Assembly (NCBI RefSeq): GCF_014874095.1
Contig: NZ_JADBEB010000001.1
Span: forward strand, 4,154,001 to 4,218,000
Length of the DNA: 64,000 bases
DNA from: Plantactinospora soyae
GTDB taxonomy: Bacteria; Actinomycetota; Actinomycetes; Mycobacteriales; Micromonosporaceae
Reading direction: 5' to 3'
Under the pieces are notes generated by a model that saw nothing but the letters and a program-made list of their open reading frames with translations, was not told the origin of the DNA and did not search any database. The translations under genes and the position numbers were made by a program. Below are positions 42,534 through 51,678 of this stretch, piece after piece. Each line of letters begins with the position of its first letter. Positions within the stretch are counted from its first letter, which is position 1.

Positions 42534-43292
42534 TCAGAGCGGAACGGTCACCAGTTCGCTGGTCACCTTGCCGTCGTCGCCGAGCACCTGGACCCGCAAC
42601 TGGTCGATCTCGCCCAGCGGGGTGGCGGTGGTCTCCTGCAACGTCAGCGGTCGGGGCTGGGCCGCCGTGCCGTATCCGGCGGGCGGCACCTTCCAACTGG
42701 AGATGACCTCCGGCGGACTGCCGTCGCGGAGCAGTACGAGCCGGCAGACCCGGGGGCCGGTCAGCTTGCTCAGTGCGAAGGAGACCTGGGTGCCGTACGG
42801 CGTCGAGGCGAGGATCATGTCGGCCTGCACGCCGCTGCGCGGGTCGGTGACGCTGAACCGCTCACCCTTGGGCAGGTCCGGGCCACCGATACCGGGCAGG
42901 GCGGAACCGCTGGCCGAGGGACCCGGCTGGGCGGTCGTTCCCGGCGGGCCGGCCACCCGGGTCCCGACGAACAACGCCAGGCCGGTCAACATCACCAGGA
43001 GTACGACGCTCGCCGCGAGGCTGTAGAGCCGCCTGCTCCGGTCCCGTCGCCGCTCCGCGCCCACCGCCGCCACGACCCGGTCGAAGAGTGCCTCGTCCAC
43101 CTCGGCGCGCTCGACAATCAGAAGATCGCGGCTGTCGACCTCGGCGAGCAGGTCCACCACCGGCAGGAACGACTCCAGTTCCTCGATGCACTGGGTGCAG
43201 GTCGCCAGGTGTTCCTCGAACCGTTCGGCGTCCCGCTCGTCGAGGACGCCGAGGGCGTACGACGCGACCTCCCGGTGGCTCTCCCCGGTCAT
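42534..43292 (-). CDS. Anti-sigma factor with zinc-binding (ZAS) domain
   Basis: 252-residue membrane anti-sigma factor. The ZAS motif HLATCTQC gives His28, Cys32 and Cys35. One transmembrane helix lies at about residues 90-110. The C-terminal extracytoplasmic domain (about 140 residues) is of the anti-sigma-K C-terminal type (GERFSVTDPRSGVQADMILASTPYGTQVSF, WKVPPAG). Its ATG overlaps the sigma gene stop by 4 bases (43289-43292), as usual for sigma/anti-sigma pairs. It would hold the ECF sigma factor inactive until an envelope or redox signal arrives. Confidence 0.92.
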   Translation of the reverse strand: MTGESHREVASYALGVLDERDAERFEEHLATCTQCIEELESFLPVVDLLAEVDSRDLLIVERAEVDEALFDRVVAAVGAERRRDRSRRLYSLAASVVLLVMLTGLALFVGTRVAGPPGTTAQPGPSASGSALPGIGGPDLPKGERFSVTDPRSGVQADMILASTPYGTQVSFALSKLTGPRVCRLVLLRDGSPPEVISSWKVPPAGYGTAAQPRPLTLQETTATPLGEIDQLRVQVLGDDGKVTSELVTVPL

Positions 43293-43861
43293 TCCGTCAC
43301 CCCCCGCTCCCGCAGGGCCGTGCGTAACGCCCGGAGGGCGTAGTAGACCCGGGACTTGGCGGTGCCGAGCGGAAGCCCCAACTCCTCGGCGGCCTCCGGC
43401 ACCGTGCGTCCCCGGAAGTACGTCGCCACCAGCACTTCACGGTGTGGCTGACTCAACGTCCGGAGCGCGTCGGTGATCGTCATCATCCGGAGCACCCGCT
43501 CGGTGTCGTCGGACTCGGAGAACGCCTCGAGATCGCGGTCGTACGTCTCGGCCGGCCGGGCCTGCTCGCTGCGGTGGTCGTCGATGACGATCCGGCGGGC
43601 GACGGTTACCAACCAGGGACGTAGCGAGGACTGCCCCTGCGCGCCTAGCCGGTGTGCGTTGCGCCAGGCACGCAGCAGCGTCTCCTGCACGACGTCCTCG
43701 GCCCGCTGGCGGTCGCCGCCGGTCAGCCGCAACACGAACATCAGCAGGGGCTTGGCGTGTTCCTGGTAGAGCAGTCGTACGAGTTCGTCTGAATGCCTCG
43801 TCTCGGCCCTCGTCTCGGCGGGTTCGGCATGGTGGCGGCCGGCAGCCGATCGCGGCGTCAC
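43289..43861 (-). CDS. ECF RNA polymerase sigma factor
   Basis: About 190-residue extracytoplasmic-function sigma factor. Region 2 is LVRLLYQEHAKPLLMFVLRL through AEDVVQETLLRAWRNAHRL, and region 4 is LRTLSQPHREVLVATYFRGRTVPEAAEELGLPLGTAKSRVYYAL. The start is uncertain: GTG at 43861 gives a typical length, whereas ATG at 43993 has a better ribosome-binding site (GGAGGT ten bases away) but adds 44 residues with non-coding-like codon use. It is coupled to the anti-sigma gene; likely targets include its own operon and the downstream lipoprotein. Confidence 0.9.
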   Translation of the reverse strand: MTPRSAAGRHHAEPAETRAETRHSDELVRLLYQEHAKPLLMFVLRLTGGDRQRAEDVVQETLLRAWRNAHRLGAQGQSSLRPWLVTVARRIVIDDHRSEQARPAETYDRDLEAFSESDDTERVLRMMTITDALRTLSQPHREVLVATYFRGRTVPEAAEELGLPLGTAKSRVYYALRALRTALRERGVTE

Positions 43862-44182
43862 CGGCCCATCATTGCGGTCCGCGGGCCGCGCGTCGAGACT
43901 TTTCCGGTACCGATTTGACCGCCGTTGCGACGTGGCGCACATTCGCCCCGGCATGGTCAGGTCGCCATGCCAACCGCCGGCTACCGCCTGCATCGCACCC
44001 ATACCTCCGCGTCGAACGCGTCGCACCCGGGGCACCGGCGATCCGGGCCGAGTTGAGCCGCCGGCGAGAGGTACGGATTTCGTACCCGGCCGGATCAACG
44101 CGGGTCGGGGAAGTTGCCGGGTCACCGGGTCGGCCTGCCCGATCGGCCGGATCGGCCGGTTGTGCCGGGGCGCCCGGATGGG
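43862..44182. promoter_or_regulatory. 321-base region upstream of the ECF sigma gene
   Basis: No gene is called here apart from a possible N-terminal extension of the sigma factor to 43993. It contains the inverted repeat GGTACG-GATTT-CGTACC (44070-44086), an operator- or hairpin-like element in the likely promoter zone, and GGCATGG/CCATGCC near 43950-43970. No ECF-type -35/-10 pair could be assigned. Confidence 0.45.
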
Positions 44183-45105: not shown

Positions 45106-46056
45106 CTACGACGCGTTGCTGGCGAAGGTGAGGGCGCGGTGCAGCAGCCGGCCGTCGCCGAGCCGGGCCCGCAGCCGGCGCTCCAGTCCGGCGATCGGGA
45201 TCAGGTTCTGTGGCGCCCTCGGATCCTTGTACGGGGTGGAGGCGAACCGGGGCAGCGTGGCCAGGGACAGGTGGGCGAGTTCGACCGCCTGCTGTTCGGC
45301 CAGCTCGGCCGAGCACTCGACCCGGACGATTCCGGCCCAGGGCCCCCGGCCGCCCCCGGGGAGCCGGAGGTACCAGGAGTAGCCGCCCCAGGCCGTACCG
45401 AGCCGGAACACCGGGGAGCGTTCACCGGCGTGCAGCCCGGTGACCAGCGCGGTGTGCCGGGCGTCGAGATACTGGCTGTGCTGCGTCTTGATGTAGCCGA
45501 GGGTGCGGGGGAGTTGTCGCCGGTTCCGCAGCGGTCCGTCCACCACCAGCAGGTCACCGTCGTCCCGGACGGCGCCGGAGACCTTCACCTCCAGCGCGGT
45601 CAGCGGCCCCTGTACGGCGGCCGGCAGCTTGCTCAGCTCGCCGGTGCCGCCGACCCGGTGTACGGCGTACCGGATCTGCCCGGCGACGACGTCCCCGGCG
45701 GACGGGCTGGCGGTGAAGAGTCCCCGTTCGACCTCCGCGCCGGCCAGTTCGGCGACTCCCCGGCGCAGGTCGCACCGGACCACCCCGGCGGCGTACGACG
45801 CGGCGACGCCGGGAAACGATCCGCCGTCCGGCTCCTCGGTCCAGACGCTGGCGTCGATCCGGCGCACCCCGTCGACCAGCAGTACGACGTCGGGCGGCTC
45901 GATCCCGTCCGGGGCGCGCAGCGGTCGCCACTCGTCCGGCGGCAGTTCGACGTCGGTCTGCACCTGCGCGCTGCTCGGCGCGGCGGGACCGCCGGCAGCC
46001 TCGAACGAGGCCCCGTACGCCGGGTCCCAGGCGTCGACGAAGAGCCGGGCGCTCAC
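45106..46056 (-). CDS. nurA: NurA-like nuclease domain protein, last gene of the HerA-SbcCD operon
   Basis: 316-residue protein that I assign to the NurA fold by motif order. LLVDGVRRIDAS (Asp62) matches the first metal-binding strand, LLVVDGPLRNRR (Asp173) the second, and GYIKTQHSQYL (Lys190) the conserved Lys strand. The end, DPRAPQNLIPIAGLERRLRA, matches the NurA C-terminal motif. NurA is a 5'-3' and endonuclease working with the HerA translocase. The GTG start overlaps the sbcC stop by 4 bases (46053-46056). The same operon carries a HerA ATPase and SbcCD, which strongly supports the call. Confidence 0.75.
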   Translation of the reverse strand: MSARLFVDAWDPAYGASFEAAGGPAAPSSAQVQTDVELPPDEWRPLRAPDGIEPPDVVLLVDGVRRIDASVWTEEPDGGSFPGVAASYAAGVVRCDLRRGVAELAGAEVERGLFTASPSAGDVVAGQIRYAVHRVGGTGELSKLPAAVQGPLTALEVKVSGAVRDDGDLLVVDGPLRNRRQLPRTLGYIKTQHSQYLDARHTALVTGLHAGERSPVFRLGTAWGGYSWYLRLPGGGRGPWAGIVRVECSAELAEQQAVELAHLSLATLPRFASTPYKDPRAPQNLIPIAGLERRLRARLGDGRLLHRALTFASNAS

Positions 46057-48536
46057 CGGCCGGTCCGCTCGACCCGGGAGCTGCGGGCGTCCTTGCGGAC
46101 CTCGAACCGCACCGGTATCCGTTCGGCGAGCGCCGGTACGTGGGTCACCACCCCGACCATCCGGTCGCCCCGGGCGGCCAGGTTCTCCAGGGTGGCGGCG
46201 ACGGTGTCCAGGGTCGCCGCGTCCAGGGTGCCGAAGCCCTCGTCGAGGACGATCGACTCCAGGCTCGCGGTGGTGGTGGAGAGGCCGGCGAGCTGTTCGG
46301 AGAGCGCCAGCGCCAGCGCCAGCGACGCCTGGAAGGTCTCGCCGCCGGAGAGGGTCCGCACCCCCCGGCGCAGCCCGGCGTCGTGGTGGTCGACCACGAA
46401 GAACTCGCCCTTGTCGTGCCCGAGGTCGTACTGGCCGCCGGTGAGTTCGCGGAGGATCCCGGAGGCGCCGTCGACGAGCAGGTCGAGCGCCTCCGCGAGC
46501 AGCCACCGTTCGAAGTTGTTGGCCCGCAGGTGCCCGGCCAGGGCCCGAGCGACCCGACCCTCGCGTTCGTGGCCGGTCCGCTGTTCGGTCAGCTCCCGGG
46601 CCTGCTCCCGACGCTCGACCAGCCGGTCGTGCGCGGACTCGGCCCGCTCCACCGCGATCGCCGCCAGCCGGACCGGGTCGTCGTCGCCGACCGGCCCACC
46701 GAGCCCGACGGCGCCGAACAGCCCGGCGATCCGGGCCGCGACCGCCGCCACGGAGTCGTGCGCCCCGGCCACCGCCGAGGCCACCTCGACCCGGTCGCGC
46801 CGCCGTTCCCCGGTCGCCCGGGCCGCCCAGTCGCAGAGGCCGGCCCAGGCGACGGAGACGTCGTCGCGGTCGGCGGCGGGTGGGCCGAGCCGGGCCACCC
46901 CGTCCCGGACGGTGTCGAAGGCCCGCCAGGCGCCCCGGAGCCGTTCCTGCGCCGCCTCGGCCCCGGCCCGGGCCCGGCGGGCCGCCTCGCGGGCGGTCCG
47001 GACCGCCGTACCGGCGCTCTCCAGGTCGCGGCGGAGCCGGGTGAGCAGGTCGAGTTCCTGGCGCAGCGCGGCCGGTCCGGGGGAGTCGGCCAGCCGGACG
47101 TCCAGCTCGGCCAGCCGGGCGGTGAGCTGTTCGTGCCGGGCACGGACCTGGTCGAGGTTGCGTTCCAGCTCCCGGGCGGCCCGCTCCCGCTCGCCGACCA
47201 GTCGCACGGCGGCATCGGCGGCGGTGCGGGCGGTCTTGCCGGCCGCCTCGGCGGCGGCCACCGAGGAGCCCTTCGGCATCGCCGGCACCTCGGCGACCGG
47301 CTGGGTGCAGACCGGGCAGGGCGCTCCGGCGTGCAGGTGGGCCCGGAGCGCGGCGGCCCGGTCGGCGGTCTGCGCCTCCTGGTAGGCGGCCCGGGCCGCC
47401 TCCAGTTCCGTGTCGGCCCGCTGCGCCGCCGTGCGGGCCTGCTCGAGGGCGGCCAGCGCCGCGTCGTGGTCGGTGCCGGCGCCGGCCAGGGCCCCGGCCA
47501 GGGCACCGACCTCGTCGGCGACCTGCTTCCGGTCGGCGTGCGCCTGCTGCAACAGCCGCAGCGCGGCCGGGTCGCCGGCCCCGGCCAACTCGCCGCGGAG
47601 CTTCTCCTCGCGTTCCTCGGCGACGGTCACCGCGGCCATCGCCTCGGTCGCCTCGCCCCGGGCGGTCGCGACCGCCTCGGCGAGCCGGGCGAGGTCGGTC
47701 GGGGGCCGGACCCCGGCCAGTTCCGCGAGTTCGGCGTCGAGGGCGGCCAGCCTCGCCTCCACCGCCGTCGCGGCCGTCCGGGCCTGCCGGAGTTCGGGTA
47801 CGGCGGCGTCGACCTCGCCGGCCAGCTTCCGCATCGCCTCGACCCGGTCGGTGGCGGTGCCGAGCGCCTCGTCGTCGATCCCGGTCAGCCCCTCGAGTAC
47901 CCGGTCGACGGCGGCCAGCGCGGCGTCGGCCCGACCGCCCCGAGCGGTGGCCAGCTTCTGGACCTCCTCGTAGACGCCGAGTCCGAGCAGGTTGACCAGG
48001 ATCTGCTGCCGGGTCGCCGGTTTGGCGTGCAGGAAGTCGGCGAACTGCCCCTGCGGCAGCAGTACGCAGCTGGTGAACTGCTCGTAAGGCAGCCCGACCG
48101 CCTCCAGCACCGCCTCTTCCATCTCGGCCGGGGTGCCGGCGACGACCTCGCCGAGATCCTCCGGGGTCAGCCCGGTGTCCAGCTTGGTCACGTCGAAGCC
48201 GGGAGGCATGAGCTGGAGCCCGGCGTTACCGGTCTTCACGTTGCCCCGGCCGTCCCGCCGGACCACCCGGGTCGCCACGTACCGGGCGCCGGCCGACTCG
48301 AAGACCAGCCGGACCCGGGCCTCGTTCGCCGACGGGGCCAGCGCGTTGGCGATGCCCCGGGCACCGCCCCAGCGTGGCACCGTGCCGTAGAGGGCGAAGC
48401 AGATCGCGTCGAGCACGCTGGACTTGCCCGAACCGGTCGGCCCGACCAGGGCGAAGAAGTCCGCGTCGGTGAAGTCGACGGTGGTGGCGTCCCGGAAGGC
48501 GGTGAAGCCGGCCAGGTCGAGCCGGAGCGGACGCAC
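46053..48536 (-). CDS. sbcC: SbcC/Rad50-type exonuclease ATPase subunit
   Basis: 827-residue SMC-like ATPase. Walker A is GPTGSGKSS (near residue 38), with Q-loop FTSCVLLPQGQFADFL. Long coiled coils flank the zinc hook CPVC (near residue 407), the ABC signature is RTLSGGETFQASLALAL and Walker B is SIVLDEGFGTLD. With SbcD it forms the Mre11-Rad50-like complex that trims DNA ends and cleaves hairpins. The GTG start shares one base with the sbcD TAG stop. The coiled coils are shorter than in E. coli SbcC (1048 residues), as usual for actinobacteria. Confidence 0.95.
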   Translation of the reverse strand: MRPLRLDLAGFTAFRDATTVDFTDADFFALVGPTGSGKSSVLDAICFALYGTVPRWGGARGIANALAPSANEARVRLVFESAGARYVATRVVRRDGRGNVKTGNAGLQLMPPGFDVTKLDTGLTPEDLGEVVAGTPAEMEEAVLEAVGLPYEQFTSCVLLPQGQFADFLHAKPATRQQILVNLLGLGVYEEVQKLATARGGRADAALAAVDRVLEGLTGIDDEALGTATDRVEAMRKLAGEVDAAVPELRQARTAATAVEARLAALDAELAELAGVRPPTDLARLAEAVATARGEATEAMAAVTVAEEREEKLRGELAGAGDPAALRLLQQAHADRKQVADEVGALAGALAGAGTDHDAALAALEQARTAAQRADTELEAARAAYQEAQTADRAAALRAHLHAGAPCPVCTQPVAEVPAMPKGSSVAAAEAAGKTARTAADAAVRLVGERERAARELERNLDQVRARHEQLTARLAELDVRLADSPGPAALRQELDLLTRLRRDLESAGTAVRTAREAARRARAGAEAAQERLRGAWRAFDTVRDGVARLGPPAADRDDVSVAWAGLCDWAARATGERRRDRVEVASAVAGAHDSVAAVAARIAGLFGAVGLGGPVGDDDPVRLAAIAVERAESAHDRLVERREQARELTEQRTGHEREGRVARALAGHLRANNFERWLLAEALDLLVDGASGILRELTGGQYDLGHDKGEFFVVDHHDAGLRRGVRTLSGGETFQASLALALALSEQLAGLSTTTASLESIVLDEGFGTLDAATLDTVAATLENLAARGDRMVGVVTHVPALAERIPVRFEVRKDARSSRVERTGR

Positions 48537-49684
48537 TATTTGGTCGCCTCCTCGAACAGATCGTCGAACAGCTCCCGGACGCCGTCGTCGGCCTGTCCCC
48601 GGGTGTCCAGGTAGTCGCCGAACAGCTCCCGGGGTGACCGCCCGGCCCGCTGGGCGGCCCGGGCGGCGGCACCGGTACTCGGCAGCATCTCGGGATCGAT
48701 CCGCACCTCCAGGGCCCGGGGCAGCAGGTCCTGTACCTCCTCGCGCAGCCCGGCCCGGGGCGCCTCCCGGACGTACACCCGGAGCCAGGCCGTGGTGTCG
48801 GTCAGCTCCGCGAGTTCGGCGATCGTTCCGCGTACGGTGCGCAGCGGCGCGGCGGCGGTGATCGGGATCTCGCGTACCCGGGCGGCGGTCCGCGCGGTCA
48901 CCTCGACGATGGTGACCGAGGGGCGGTTCTCCTCCTCGCCGAAGTCGACGGCGAGCGGGCTGCCGCTGTAGCGGATCGGGCACGGCCCCAGCACCTGCTG
49001 GGCCCGGTGCAGGTGACCCAGTGCCACGTAGTGCGCGCCGGTCGGAAAGACGGTGGCCGGTACGGCGTAGTTGAGCACCGTGTGCGCCTCCCGCTCGCCG
49101 CCGCCGGCCTGGGCGCCGACGACGGTCAGGTGACCGGTGACCAGGTGTACCCGGTCGGGTTCGTCGAAGCCCTCGGTGAGCCGGCCGAGCACCCGCCCGA
49201 CGTGGTCGGCGTACGTCTGGACGGCCTCGGCGGCGGTCAGCTCGTACATCTCGACGGCCCGGACGGCGTACCGCTGGGACAGGAACGGCAGCGCGACCAG
49301 CCGCCACGCCTCGCCGTCGGCGGTGCTGCCGTCGATCACGTGCTCGGCCGGGTTGTCCCGGACACTGCCGCGCAGCGCCACCCCGGCCGCCTCCGCCCAC
49401 GGCCGCAGCGCGTCCAGGGCCGGGCCGTTGTCGTGGTTGCCGCCGATCGCGACGACCTGTGCCCCGGTCCGGCGCAGCGCGGAGAGCGCCCGGGTGACCA
49501 GCCGGGTGGACTCCGGGGTCGGCGCCGCGGTGTCGTAGAGGTCACCGGCGACGATTACCAGGTCCGGGGACTCGGCCTGGGCGACCTCGACCACCTGGGC
49601 CAGCGCGTCCCGGTGCTCGCCGACCCGGGACTGTCCCTTGAGGACCTTGCCGACGTGCCAGTCGGAGGTGTGCAGGATCTTCAC
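48536..49684 (-). CDS. sbcD: SbcD/Mre11-type exonuclease subunit
   Basis: 382-residue metallophosphoesterase nuclease. All phosphoesterase motifs are visible: MKILHTSDWHVG (I), VIVAGDLYDTAAP (II), GGNHDNGPAL (III), LVTGHLTVVGAQ (IV) and YVALGHLHRAQ (V). A DNA-binding capping domain follows. It forms the heterotetramer with SbcC. It lies 22 bases after the HerA-like gene in the same operon; transcription order is herA-sbcD-sbcC-nurA. Confidence 0.95.
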   Translation of the reverse strand: MKILHTSDWHVGKVLKGQSRVGEHRDALAQVVEVAQAESPDLVIVAGDLYDTAAPTPESTRLVTRALSALRRTGAQVVAIGGNHDNGPALDALRPWAEAAGVALRGSVRDNPAEHVIDGSTADGEAWRLVALPFLSQRYAVRAVEMYELTAAEAVQTYADHVGRVLGRLTEGFDEPDRVHLVTGHLTVVGAQAGGGEREAHTVLNYAVPATVFPTGAHYVALGHLHRAQQVLGPCPIRYSGSPLAVDFGEEENRPSVTIVEVTARTAARVREIPITAAAPLRTVRGTIAELAELTDTTAWLRVYVREAPRAGLREEVQDLLPRALEVRIDPEMLPSTGAAARAAQRAGRSPRELFGDYLDTRGQADDGVRELFDDLFEEATK

Positions 49685-49706
49685 GGGGCAACCGGCCTAA
49701 CGGGTA

Positions 49707-51464
49707 CTAGAAGGGGATGTCGTCGTCGGAGAGCGCGTTGGCCCGGGAGCCGACCACCGCGAACGGATCGGCCGCCTGGGTGATCGAGCGCAGCGTCTCC
49801 GACGGGGCGGCGCCGGCCTCCGACACCCGGGTCGCCCAGGCCGGGAACGGGAAGTCCAGGCAGAGCGGCACCGGGATGTCCGGCTGGTTGACGAACATGG
49901 TGCCGGGCTTGGCCAGCAGCGCCCGCTGCCGCTGGGCGGCCGGCAGGAAGCCGTACTCCGGGCGGGACGCCTCGGCCGGGTCGAGCCGGCCGACCACCCG
50001 GATCGCCGAGTTGGTGACGATCCGCCGTTCCACCTCGCTCGCCGTCTGCTGCGCCCCGATCAGGATCACCCCGAGCGAACGGCCCCGCTCGGCGATGTCG
50101 AGCAGCACCTCCTTGATCGGGGAGGAGCCCTCCCGGGGGGCGTACTTGTTGAGCTCGTCGAGGACCACGAAGAGCAGCGGCTTCGCCGTGCCGGCCTTCT
50201 CCTTGCGCTCGAACTCGGTCTTCAGGGTCACCCCGACCACGAACCGCTGCGCCCGGTCCGGCAGGTTGTGCAGGTCGACGACGGTCACCTGGGCGCTCTC
50301 GGCGGTGTTCACGCTGTGCGGCCGGCGGGTCGCCAAGTCTCCCCGGATCAGCCGGGCCAGGTCCTTCTTGCTGCCGATCATGCGGCGGGCGAACGCGTTG
50401 ACCGTGCCCATGTTGACCGCGCTGCCGGCCCAGTCCGTCCGGGTCTCGTCGTCGGTGAGCTGCTCGACGACGTGGTCCACCAGGTCGGGGTAGGAGTTGA
50501 TCCGGACCCCGTCGATGCTCACCCCGCCGTCGGCGGGTTGGGCGTACCGGGCCAGGTGGGCGGCGACCGAGTGCACCACCATCGTGTACTGCTGGCGTTC
50601 GTCGTCGGCGTCGGCGAAGACGTACGGCAGCAGGCGGTCGGCGCAGAACTCGGTGAGCGTCCAGTAGAAGCTGTCGACCCCGGCGAGCCGGCTGCTCACG
50701 TCCGGGGTGCCGGAGGAGTCCCCGGGCCGGGGCGGCGCGTAGACCCTGACATCCGGGAACGCCCCGGCGGTCAGCCCCAGTTTCGCGTACGTCGCCCGGG
50801 TGGGGTCGTCGAGCCGGCTGTTGGGGTGGTCGAGGAAGAGCAGGTCCTCGCCCTTGACGTTGAAGATCAGCGCCTTGGCGTTGACCGCGTCGCCACCGAG
50901 GACGCCGGAGCGGAACACCGAGTAGAGCAGGAAGGTGGCGAAGCTGGTCTTGGTCGCCACCCCGGAGATGCCGGAGATCGAGACGTGTGCGCCCCGGCTG
51001 CCGTCCAGGAAGTCGGCGTTGAGGTAGACCGGCACGCCGTCCCGGCCCATGCCCATCGGCACCCGCCGTTCCATCCGGTCGAAGTGCAGCGCCGCCGAGC
51101 GGGCCTCACCCTCGGCCCGGTAGACCAGCGCACCGGGGGAGGGCGGCACGTAGAACTCCGGGTCGACCCGGGTGGTGGTGATCTCGGCCGCCTCCTGCAC
51201 CAGCGCCGGCAGCGTGCCGTCGGCGATGGCGAAGACGTCGGAGTCGAACTGGGCACCCTCGTGCCGGGCCCGGACCTGGGTGACCACTCCGGCGATGGTG
51301 ACCGGTTCCCGGTCCGGCAGCTCGCGCCGGGTCACCACCACGTCGTCGAGTTGCAGGTAACAGCCGGGTGTGACGGCGGTCCAGAACTGCAGCGGGGTGG
51401 CGTCGGCGGTGCCGAGCACCCGGCCGACCTCCGCGCCGGGGGCCTCCGGTCGGGTGTCGGTCAC
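49707..51464 (-). CDS. herA: HerA-like hexameric DNA translocase ATPase
   Basis: 585-residue FtsK/HerA-superfamily ATPase. Residues 12-70 form the HAS-barrel (VGRVLGTADATPLQFW, EPVTIAGVVTQV). The P-loop is the variant GISGVATKTSF (Lys172) instead of GxxGxGKS/T, Walker B is FVVLDELNKYAP, and a catalytic arginine-like VVGRLDPAE segment follows. HerA rings translocate on DNA and stimulate NurA. It is the first gene of the four-gene operon. The GTG start at 51464 has no clear ribosome-binding site, so a leaderless start or an alternative upstream promoter is possible. Confidence 0.88.
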   Translation of the reverse strand: MTDTRPEAPGAEVGRVLGTADATPLQFWTAVTPGCYLQLDDVVVTRRELPDREPVTIAGVVTQVRARHEGAQFDSDVFAIADGTLPALVQEAAEITTTRVDPEFYVPPSPGALVYRAEGEARSAALHFDRMERRVPMGMGRDGVPVYLNADFLDGSRGAHVSISGISGVATKTSFATFLLYSVFRSGVLGGDAVNAKALIFNVKGEDLLFLDHPNSRLDDPTRATYAKLGLTAGAFPDVRVYAPPRPGDSSGTPDVSSRLAGVDSFYWTLTEFCADRLLPYVFADADDERQQYTMVVHSVAAHLARYAQPADGGVSIDGVRINSYPDLVDHVVEQLTDDETRTDWAGSAVNMGTVNAFARRMIGSKKDLARLIRGDLATRRPHSVNTAESAQVTVVDLHNLPDRAQRFVVGVTLKTEFERKEKAGTAKPLLFVVLDELNKYAPREGSSPIKEVLLDIAERGRSLGVILIGAQQTASEVERRIVTNSAIRVVGRLDPAEASRPEYGFLPAAQRQRALLAKPGTMFVNQPDIPVPLCLDFPFPAWATRVSEAGAAPSETLRSITQAADPFAVVGSRANALSDDDIPF

Positions 51465-51678
51465 CGCGCGGACCCGGTCAAAGCGAGAATCTGGTCAAGG
51501 CACACGAGTCGCATCCTGCCTCACTAGTACGACACCATGCCACGCGACGCGGCGATGGAGCCGGGGGATCGGGTCGGCCCGCCCGGTTCGTCCGTGGTCG
51601 GCGGTACACGACTCCTTTCCGCCGCATTCACCAAATCTTGCCGGTTGGCGCCAGATCGCCCCCGTAACCTGCTGGACC

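Follow-up and report, generated by a model that had tools for sequence, protein, structure and literature searches.

The genome of Plantactinospora soyae (assembly GCF_014874095.1), a single 9.7 Mb contig, carries a chromosomal operon of four genes in the order herA-sbcD-sbcC-nurA. It lies within the 64,000-nucleotide stretch analysed here, positions 4,154,001 to 4,218,000 of the forward strand of NZ_JADBEB010000001.1 (hereafter the window). The genes are closely packed, keep most of the residues tested in the Deinococcus HerA-NurA enzymes and are inherited together. We propose, with a probability of roughly 0.7, that the operon processes DNA ends, with SbcCD opening or clearing the end and HerA-NurA resecting the 5' strand beside an AdnAB-like system. 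Homology to a characterised enzyme lends good support to the HerA-NurA half of this mechanism.

Identities of the four proteins

All four genes lie on the minus strand, use GTG as the start codon and, from the gene reading, are transcribed in one direction. The first gene, herA (49707-51464), encodes a 585-residue Deinococcus-type ATPase of the HerA/FtsK superfamily and is followed by sbcD (48536-49684; 382 residues, a bacterial Mre11-type metallophosphoesterase), sbcC (46053-48536; 827 residues, a bacterial Rad50-type ATPase) and nurA (45106-46056; 316 residues, a bacterial-type NurA nuclease). A gap of 22 bases separates herA from sbcD, the start of sbcC overlaps the end of sbcD by one base, and the start of nurA overlaps the end of sbcC by four bases, which matches exactly the layout given in a first-pass annotation of the window.

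HerA aligns over nearly its whole length with HerA from D. radiodurans (drHerA, PDB 7f6d_B; phmmer 1.8e-148, residues 11-309 and 317-550), and its closest relatives among the matches listed are from Plantactinospora alkalitolerans (98%) and P. mayteni (95%). The protein had been described as a HAS-barrel HerA-like ATPase; the HerA identity stands by this alignment, whereas Pfam gave no HAS-barrel match at E ≤ 1, and a putative HAS-barrel region (residues 11-112) aligns with residues 13-114 of the drHerA chain. The archaeal HerA model NF040819 scored 16 bits against a cut-off of 970. The protein contains a RecA-like ATPase core with Walker A and Walker B motifs. Its Walker A sequence, SGVATKTS, is non-canonical with a Thr replacing the usual Gly before the Lys, a feature common to Deinococcus HerA. 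Residues K172, T173, D207, D436, E437 and R444 align with drHerA K175, T176, D220, D487, E488 and R495 and are invariant in 27 aligned homologues. In the drHerA structure the Walker A Lys and Thr contact ADP and Mg, and both ATPase activity and resection were reported to be impaired by mutation of the Walker A Lys or the Walker B acids (PMC9960219).

SbcD matches the bacterial model TIGR00619 with 175.3 bits, above its cut-off, and scores at most 52.2 bits with archaeal Mre11 models; it contains the phosphoesterase motifs SDWH, GDLYD, GNHD, TGHL and LGHLH. SbcC matches TIGR00618 with 260.2 bits (3.8e-77), below the cut-off of 478.5, and archaeal Rad50 models with at most 82.6 bits. Its ATPase head and CxxC hook are represented by the motifs GPTGSGKSS, LSGGE and VLDEGF and by a CPVC sequence from residue 407, so that the pair has the features of bacterial SbcCD, as had been predicted with the CPVC hook.

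The product of the last gene had been suggested to be a NurA nuclease, and the sequence motifs quoted for it are present. Searches by sequence, profile and fold all gave NurA, rather than an unrelated family, as the best match, with homology over the RNase H-like NurA domain. Profile searches with Pfam, proposed in the first-pass annotation, were less informative, the NurA model scoring this protein below its cut-off; with this score and the missing HAS-barrel match, the identities of both NurA and HerA rest on alignment, profile and fold. Residues D62, E156, D173, K190 and R280, including the acidic residues whose absence would have argued against a nuclease, are invariant in 33 homologues. 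D62, K190 and R280 align with D53, K201 and R309 of D. radiodurans NurA (drNurA), each of which is required for cleavage (PMC9960219). The low Pfam score would be compatible with a NurA-fold protein that lacks nuclease activity and serves as a structural or regulatory subunit, but the invariance of these five residues, three of them equivalent to the drNurA cleavage residues, makes such a role very improbable. The basic motif 3 is kept in part by our reading of the alignment, with R270 and K277 standing for drNurA K299 and K306. An N-terminal strand is predicted at residues 4-7 in a model of the monomer; in bacterial-type NurA, a strand ahead of beta-1 is reported to make the dimer (PMC9960219).

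Thus, the operon resembles the D. radiodurans HerA-NurA system in its near full-length HerA homology, its Walker A sequence and its bacterial-type NurA with equivalents of D53, K201 and R309. The Deinococcus proteins were studied as a nurA-herA pair, with SbcC and SbcD unnamed in the main text of that report (PMC9960219). In Sulfolobus, the herA-mre11-rad50-nurA operon combines these four functions in the arrangement seen in the window (order according to PMC10470591), but its proteins belong to archaeal branches, and the low scores of the archaeal HerA, Mre11 and Rad50 models set the Plantactinospora proteins apart from them. The earlier description of the operon as equivalent to the archaeal cluster therefore holds for functions and gene order, whereas all four proteins come from bacterial branches. 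Bacterial HerA-NurA is not new, and at least one bacterial cluster of all four genes is on record: nurA-hepA-sbcD-sbcC of Oceanithermus profundus brings the same four families together (PMC5448004). That cluster has NurA first and received a passing mention for a single species, in which the authors inferred recruitment of SbcCD, whereas the four-gene set described here is widespread in another phylum.

Distribution, linkage and gene order

Of 121 genomes of the Micromonosporaceae, the family of P. soyae, 120 contain NurA, as do 41 of 42 genera, which makes it a core gene of this family. In a sample of 296 genomes from the phylum, NurA was present in 55 and HerA in 65. With nine distant HerA matches from one family (f18) set aside, HerA occurred in 54 of the 55 NurA-positive genomes; the one genome with NurA only had a weak hit with an internal stop, and two genomes had HerA only. 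The nine distant HerA proteins (27-32% identity, frames of 682-1073 residues) come from genomes without a NurA match (G011, G026, G041, G062, G084, G106, G115, G145 and G208). SbcD was detected in all of 20 tested NurA-positive genomes (from the 55), the cluster copy being the only one in 18 of them, and in 8 of 20 tested NurA-negative genomes (from the 241). The SbcD of the operon is the sole one in the P. soyae genome at E ≤ 1e-15.

For the analysis of gene linkage, 52 stretches were fetched from 51 of the 55 NurA-positive genomes; outside this count are the window itself (G000), a weak hit with an internal stop (G006), a fragment (G179) and a locus at a contig edge (G271). In 44 of the 52 loci the complete set is encoded on a single strand, 18 with the order of the window and 26 with the order NurA-HerA-SbcD-SbcC. 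In 13 of these 44 at least one computed gap is longer than 300 bases, and some of these gaps may reflect start choice or frameshifts. Contig ends truncate four of the other eight loci (L038, L040, L057 and L068), one of which (L057) has an SbcC-like AAA_23 protein at the expected place. A scan of named genomes, covering the best 80 of at least 587 HerA relatives, gave loci that are all from Micromonosporales by title (we count Glycomyces and Stackebrandtia within this order, by our own assumption). The order of the window was found in 67 of them, while 11 leave the contig before NurA and one (L086) ends at HerA. The conservation survey called for in the first-pass annotation thus shows four-gene linkage that exceeds chance. 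No shared fifth gene was apparent among the open reading frames listed in the intervals of some loci of one of the two orders.

Quick maximum-likelihood trees of HerA (43 rows), NurA (42 rows) and SbcD (43 rows) each show a single change of gene order, with SH-aLRT support of 97, 99 and 98, respectively. Incomplete or fragmentary loci were left out of the trees (L037, L038, L040, L043, L047, L048, L057, L063, L068, L069, L070, L074 and L080), and L073 was additionally left out of the NurA tree. Both sides of the split include members of families f9, f31 and f47, and one genome (G281) holds one cluster of each order (L071 and L076) together with a third SbcD, a pattern that suggests transfer of the cluster between lineages, or its duplication, as a unit. 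In another genome, NurA, HerA and SbcD seem to occur a second time, in divergent form, as a run on one strand (G140:C15:13743-16809).

Among 72,556 plasmid records, 6 contained HerA relatives, and a direct search for NurA gave four with relatives of that protein. An 11.85 Mb Nonomuraea entry among these records is more likely a chromosome than a plasmid. The four-gene set is present on a linear plasmid of Streptomyces (L165; NurA-like protein 44% identical), on a conjugative plasmid of Sphaerospermopsis (L167) and on a Chloroflexota plasmid (L168), whose NurA-like protein was missed in the direct search and recognized by hhalign (E 2.5e-20). In all three, the NurA gene is annotated as hypothetical, in line with the earlier remark that this gene is usually left so. 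An IrrE/ImmA-like metallopeptidase (Peptidase_M78) is encoded near the set on two of the plasmids (L165:1-6316 and L168:5062-5796), and the Streptomyces plasmid also carries, close to it, a TIGR02680/TIGR02678/DUF2397 set, which we take to be Wadjet-like. Phage records gave two HerA matches with 24-27% identity, one of them (24%) a protein of Marinitoga camini virus 1 (KP836355.1:38522-40087) annotated as bipolar DNA helicase HerA. The cyanobacterial and Chloroflexota plasmids carry the NurA-first order, which is also reported for O. profundus (PMC5448004), suggesting that this order is the older one; the trees are unrooted and the plasmid branches long. If this rooting is right, the likeness between the orders of the window and of Sulfolobus would be convergent.

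End processing beside AdnAB and other possible roles

The P. soyae genome also encodes adjacent UvrD-helicase/PDDEXK_1 proteins of 1190 and about 1224 residues, which by sequence represent an AdnAB-like system. Within the phylum sample, a PDDEXK_1 (PF12705) match was present in 54 of 55 NurA-positive and 222 of 241 NurA-negative genomes (Fisher p 0.14), and 12 of the 20 sampled genomes without such a match belong to family f18. Since PF12705 also marks small nucleases, the Micromonosporaceae were searched with the AdnA-like protein of P. soyae itself (the second of the pair), and 40 of 41 genomes gave a relative at E ≤ 1e-100. One genome has AdnA without NurA (G325) and one NurA without AdnA (G297), both assemblies being fragmented. 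With AdnA and NurA both near-universal in the family, and PF12705 common to NurA-positive and NurA-negative genomes, a replacement of AdnAB or AddAB by the operon was ruled out. The operon is therefore an addition to AdnAB rather than a substitute, and 'additional' is a more apt word than 'alternative', the term first used for this resection machine.

In the proposed mechanism, SbcC-SbcD, the bacterial Mre11-Rad50, would recognize a DNA end and open or clear it, including hairpin or blocked ends. A HerA hexamer would then pump duplex DNA along its channel and into a NurA dimer docked to it, and this dimer would degrade the 5' strand and leave a 3' tail for RecA, the whole working beside the AdnAB-like system and not instead of it. 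The 6:2 HerA-NurA assembly, the pumping and the 5' resection are predicted from work on relatives, while the hand-over of ends from SbcCD to HerA-NurA is suggested by gene linkage and archaeal precedent. A DNA-damaging agent is reported to induce the Sulfolobus operon (PMC10470591), in which every gene is reported to be essential (PMC4351679).

It is also conceivable that SbcCD and HerA-NurA are merely co-expressed, with SbcCD processing hairpins, HerA-NurA serving another task and no ends handed over. The Thermus nurA-hepA genes are located apart from SbcCD (PMC5448004), a minimal machine for end resection has been predicted for the Deinococcus pair (PMC12977600), and the gaps of over 300 bases in 13 complete loci fit such an arrangement. 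However, the four genes stay together and co-directional in both permuted orders, the three gene trees agree on the split between them, and Mre11 interacts with HerA in Sulfolobus acidocaldarius (PMC2288612), so we regard simple co-expression as rather unlikely, while giving it real weight.

A role chiefly against phages and plasmids, with HerA pumping foreign linear DNA into NurA and SbcCD serving as the end sensor, would make the operon similar to HerA-Sir2, HerA-DUF4297 or TdpAB. TdpAB and other HerA-nuclease defence systems likewise combine a HerA-like ATPase with a nuclease, and chain G of TdpAB shares the NurA fold in our fold searches; this match and the PADLOC matches of SbcC and HerA to MADS proteins are in keeping with such a role. 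However, the HerA-named PADLOC models match weakly (2.7e-5 or worse), NurA has no PADLOC match at E ≤ 0.01, and the mad3 match probably reflects a general likeness among SMC-type ATPases. In addition, the cluster holds the only SbcD of the genome, and the near-universal presence of NurA in the family differs from the patchy occurrence of a typical defence gene. We therefore consider defence as the chief function improbable.

Several observations nevertheless count against end processing by the four proteins. The acidic residues D78, E80 and D81 of drHerA bind NurA (PMC9960219), and HerA of P. soyae keeps one of the three, D76, with F78 and A79 replacing E80 and D81; the HerA-NurA interface may therefore differ from that of Deinococcus. 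The majority of genomes in the phylum sample (241 of 296) have no NurA match, and the AdnAB-like system already offers resection in the same cell. NurA is not near HerA in 4 of the 52 loci (L043, L047, L048 and L074), the distance to HerA being 14-18 kb in two of them and HerA lying on a different contig in the other two; in L043 SbcD and SbcC are not nearby either. Similarly, one locus of the named-genome scan (L161, a Micromonosporaceae metagenome-assembled genome, 9950-17847) has HerA followed by a helix-turn-helix protein, and the following 6.1 kb contain no match to SbcD, SbcC or NurA. In D. radiodurans or Thermus, loss of nurA or herA was reported to give modest or even improved damage resistance (PMC9960219), in contrast to a report of UV sensitivity (PMC5448004), and a 2026 paper argued that HerA-NurA of T. 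kodakarensis has an antiviral role and may not act in resection (PMC12977600).

Upstream element and significance

A conserved element, TGTCGTAC-N8-CAGGATG, is located at 51512-51534 on the minus strand, 48-70 bases upstream of the herA start, and by position it may be promoter-like. This sequence occurs exactly once in the genome, while near-matches are common, with 124 places at up to two mismatches against 22 for the reversed control. The form TGTCGTAC-N8-CANNAT, or a near form of it, was found upstream of herA in 43 of 80 regions (79 Micromonosporales loci and the window) compared with a mean of 0.0 in 200 base shuffles. Since the loci are related and the pattern was picked after viewing the alignment, this enrichment indicates conservation rather than function. 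Among these 80 regions there was no full SOS box (a shorter form in one, L110) and no match to the RecA-NDp pattern; allowing one mismatch, that consensus matched the genome at 24 places and its reversed control at 13, and the operon was not among the sites matched by the consensus. The spacing and the TGTC core of the element are presumably like those of the RecA-NDp (PafBC) motif, and the rest is different. Downstream of the operon, the minus strand at 42534-44125 encodes an ECF-like factor of the sigma-70 family and, after it, a zf-HC2 zinc-finger protein, likely a sigma/anti-sigma pair.

Taken together, these results allow a broader proposal, which we put forward tentatively and hold to be possible rather than probable. 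Micromonosporaceae, other Actinomycetota and plasmids of three phyla may carry a self-contained, transferable SbcCD-HerA-NurA assembly, which would couple end clearing to 5' resection in parallel to AdnAB and take the hairpin or protein-blocked ends that AdnAB cannot start on. The order found in the window would have arisen once, by a move of nurA from the front to the back and independently of Sulfolobus, and a damage-responsive element ahead of herA may drive expression. In the open-licence literature we found no report of an actinobacterial four-gene cluster, which may be mentioned elsewhere, nor did we see there its near-universality in Micromonosporaceae, its wide occurrence across Actinomycetota, the pair of gene orders separated by one change, the plasmid sets or the coexistence with AdnAB.

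NurA genes that are annotated as hypothetical gain a likely function from this work, the standard Pfam model missing NurA of Plantactinospora. For archaea, the hand-over of DNA ends from Mre11-Rad50 to HerA-NurA is still argued, and in Sulfolobus islandicus the four genes are essential, which makes deletion studies hard. A mesophilic bacterial operon working beside AdnAB would make the hand-over question testable through gene removal.

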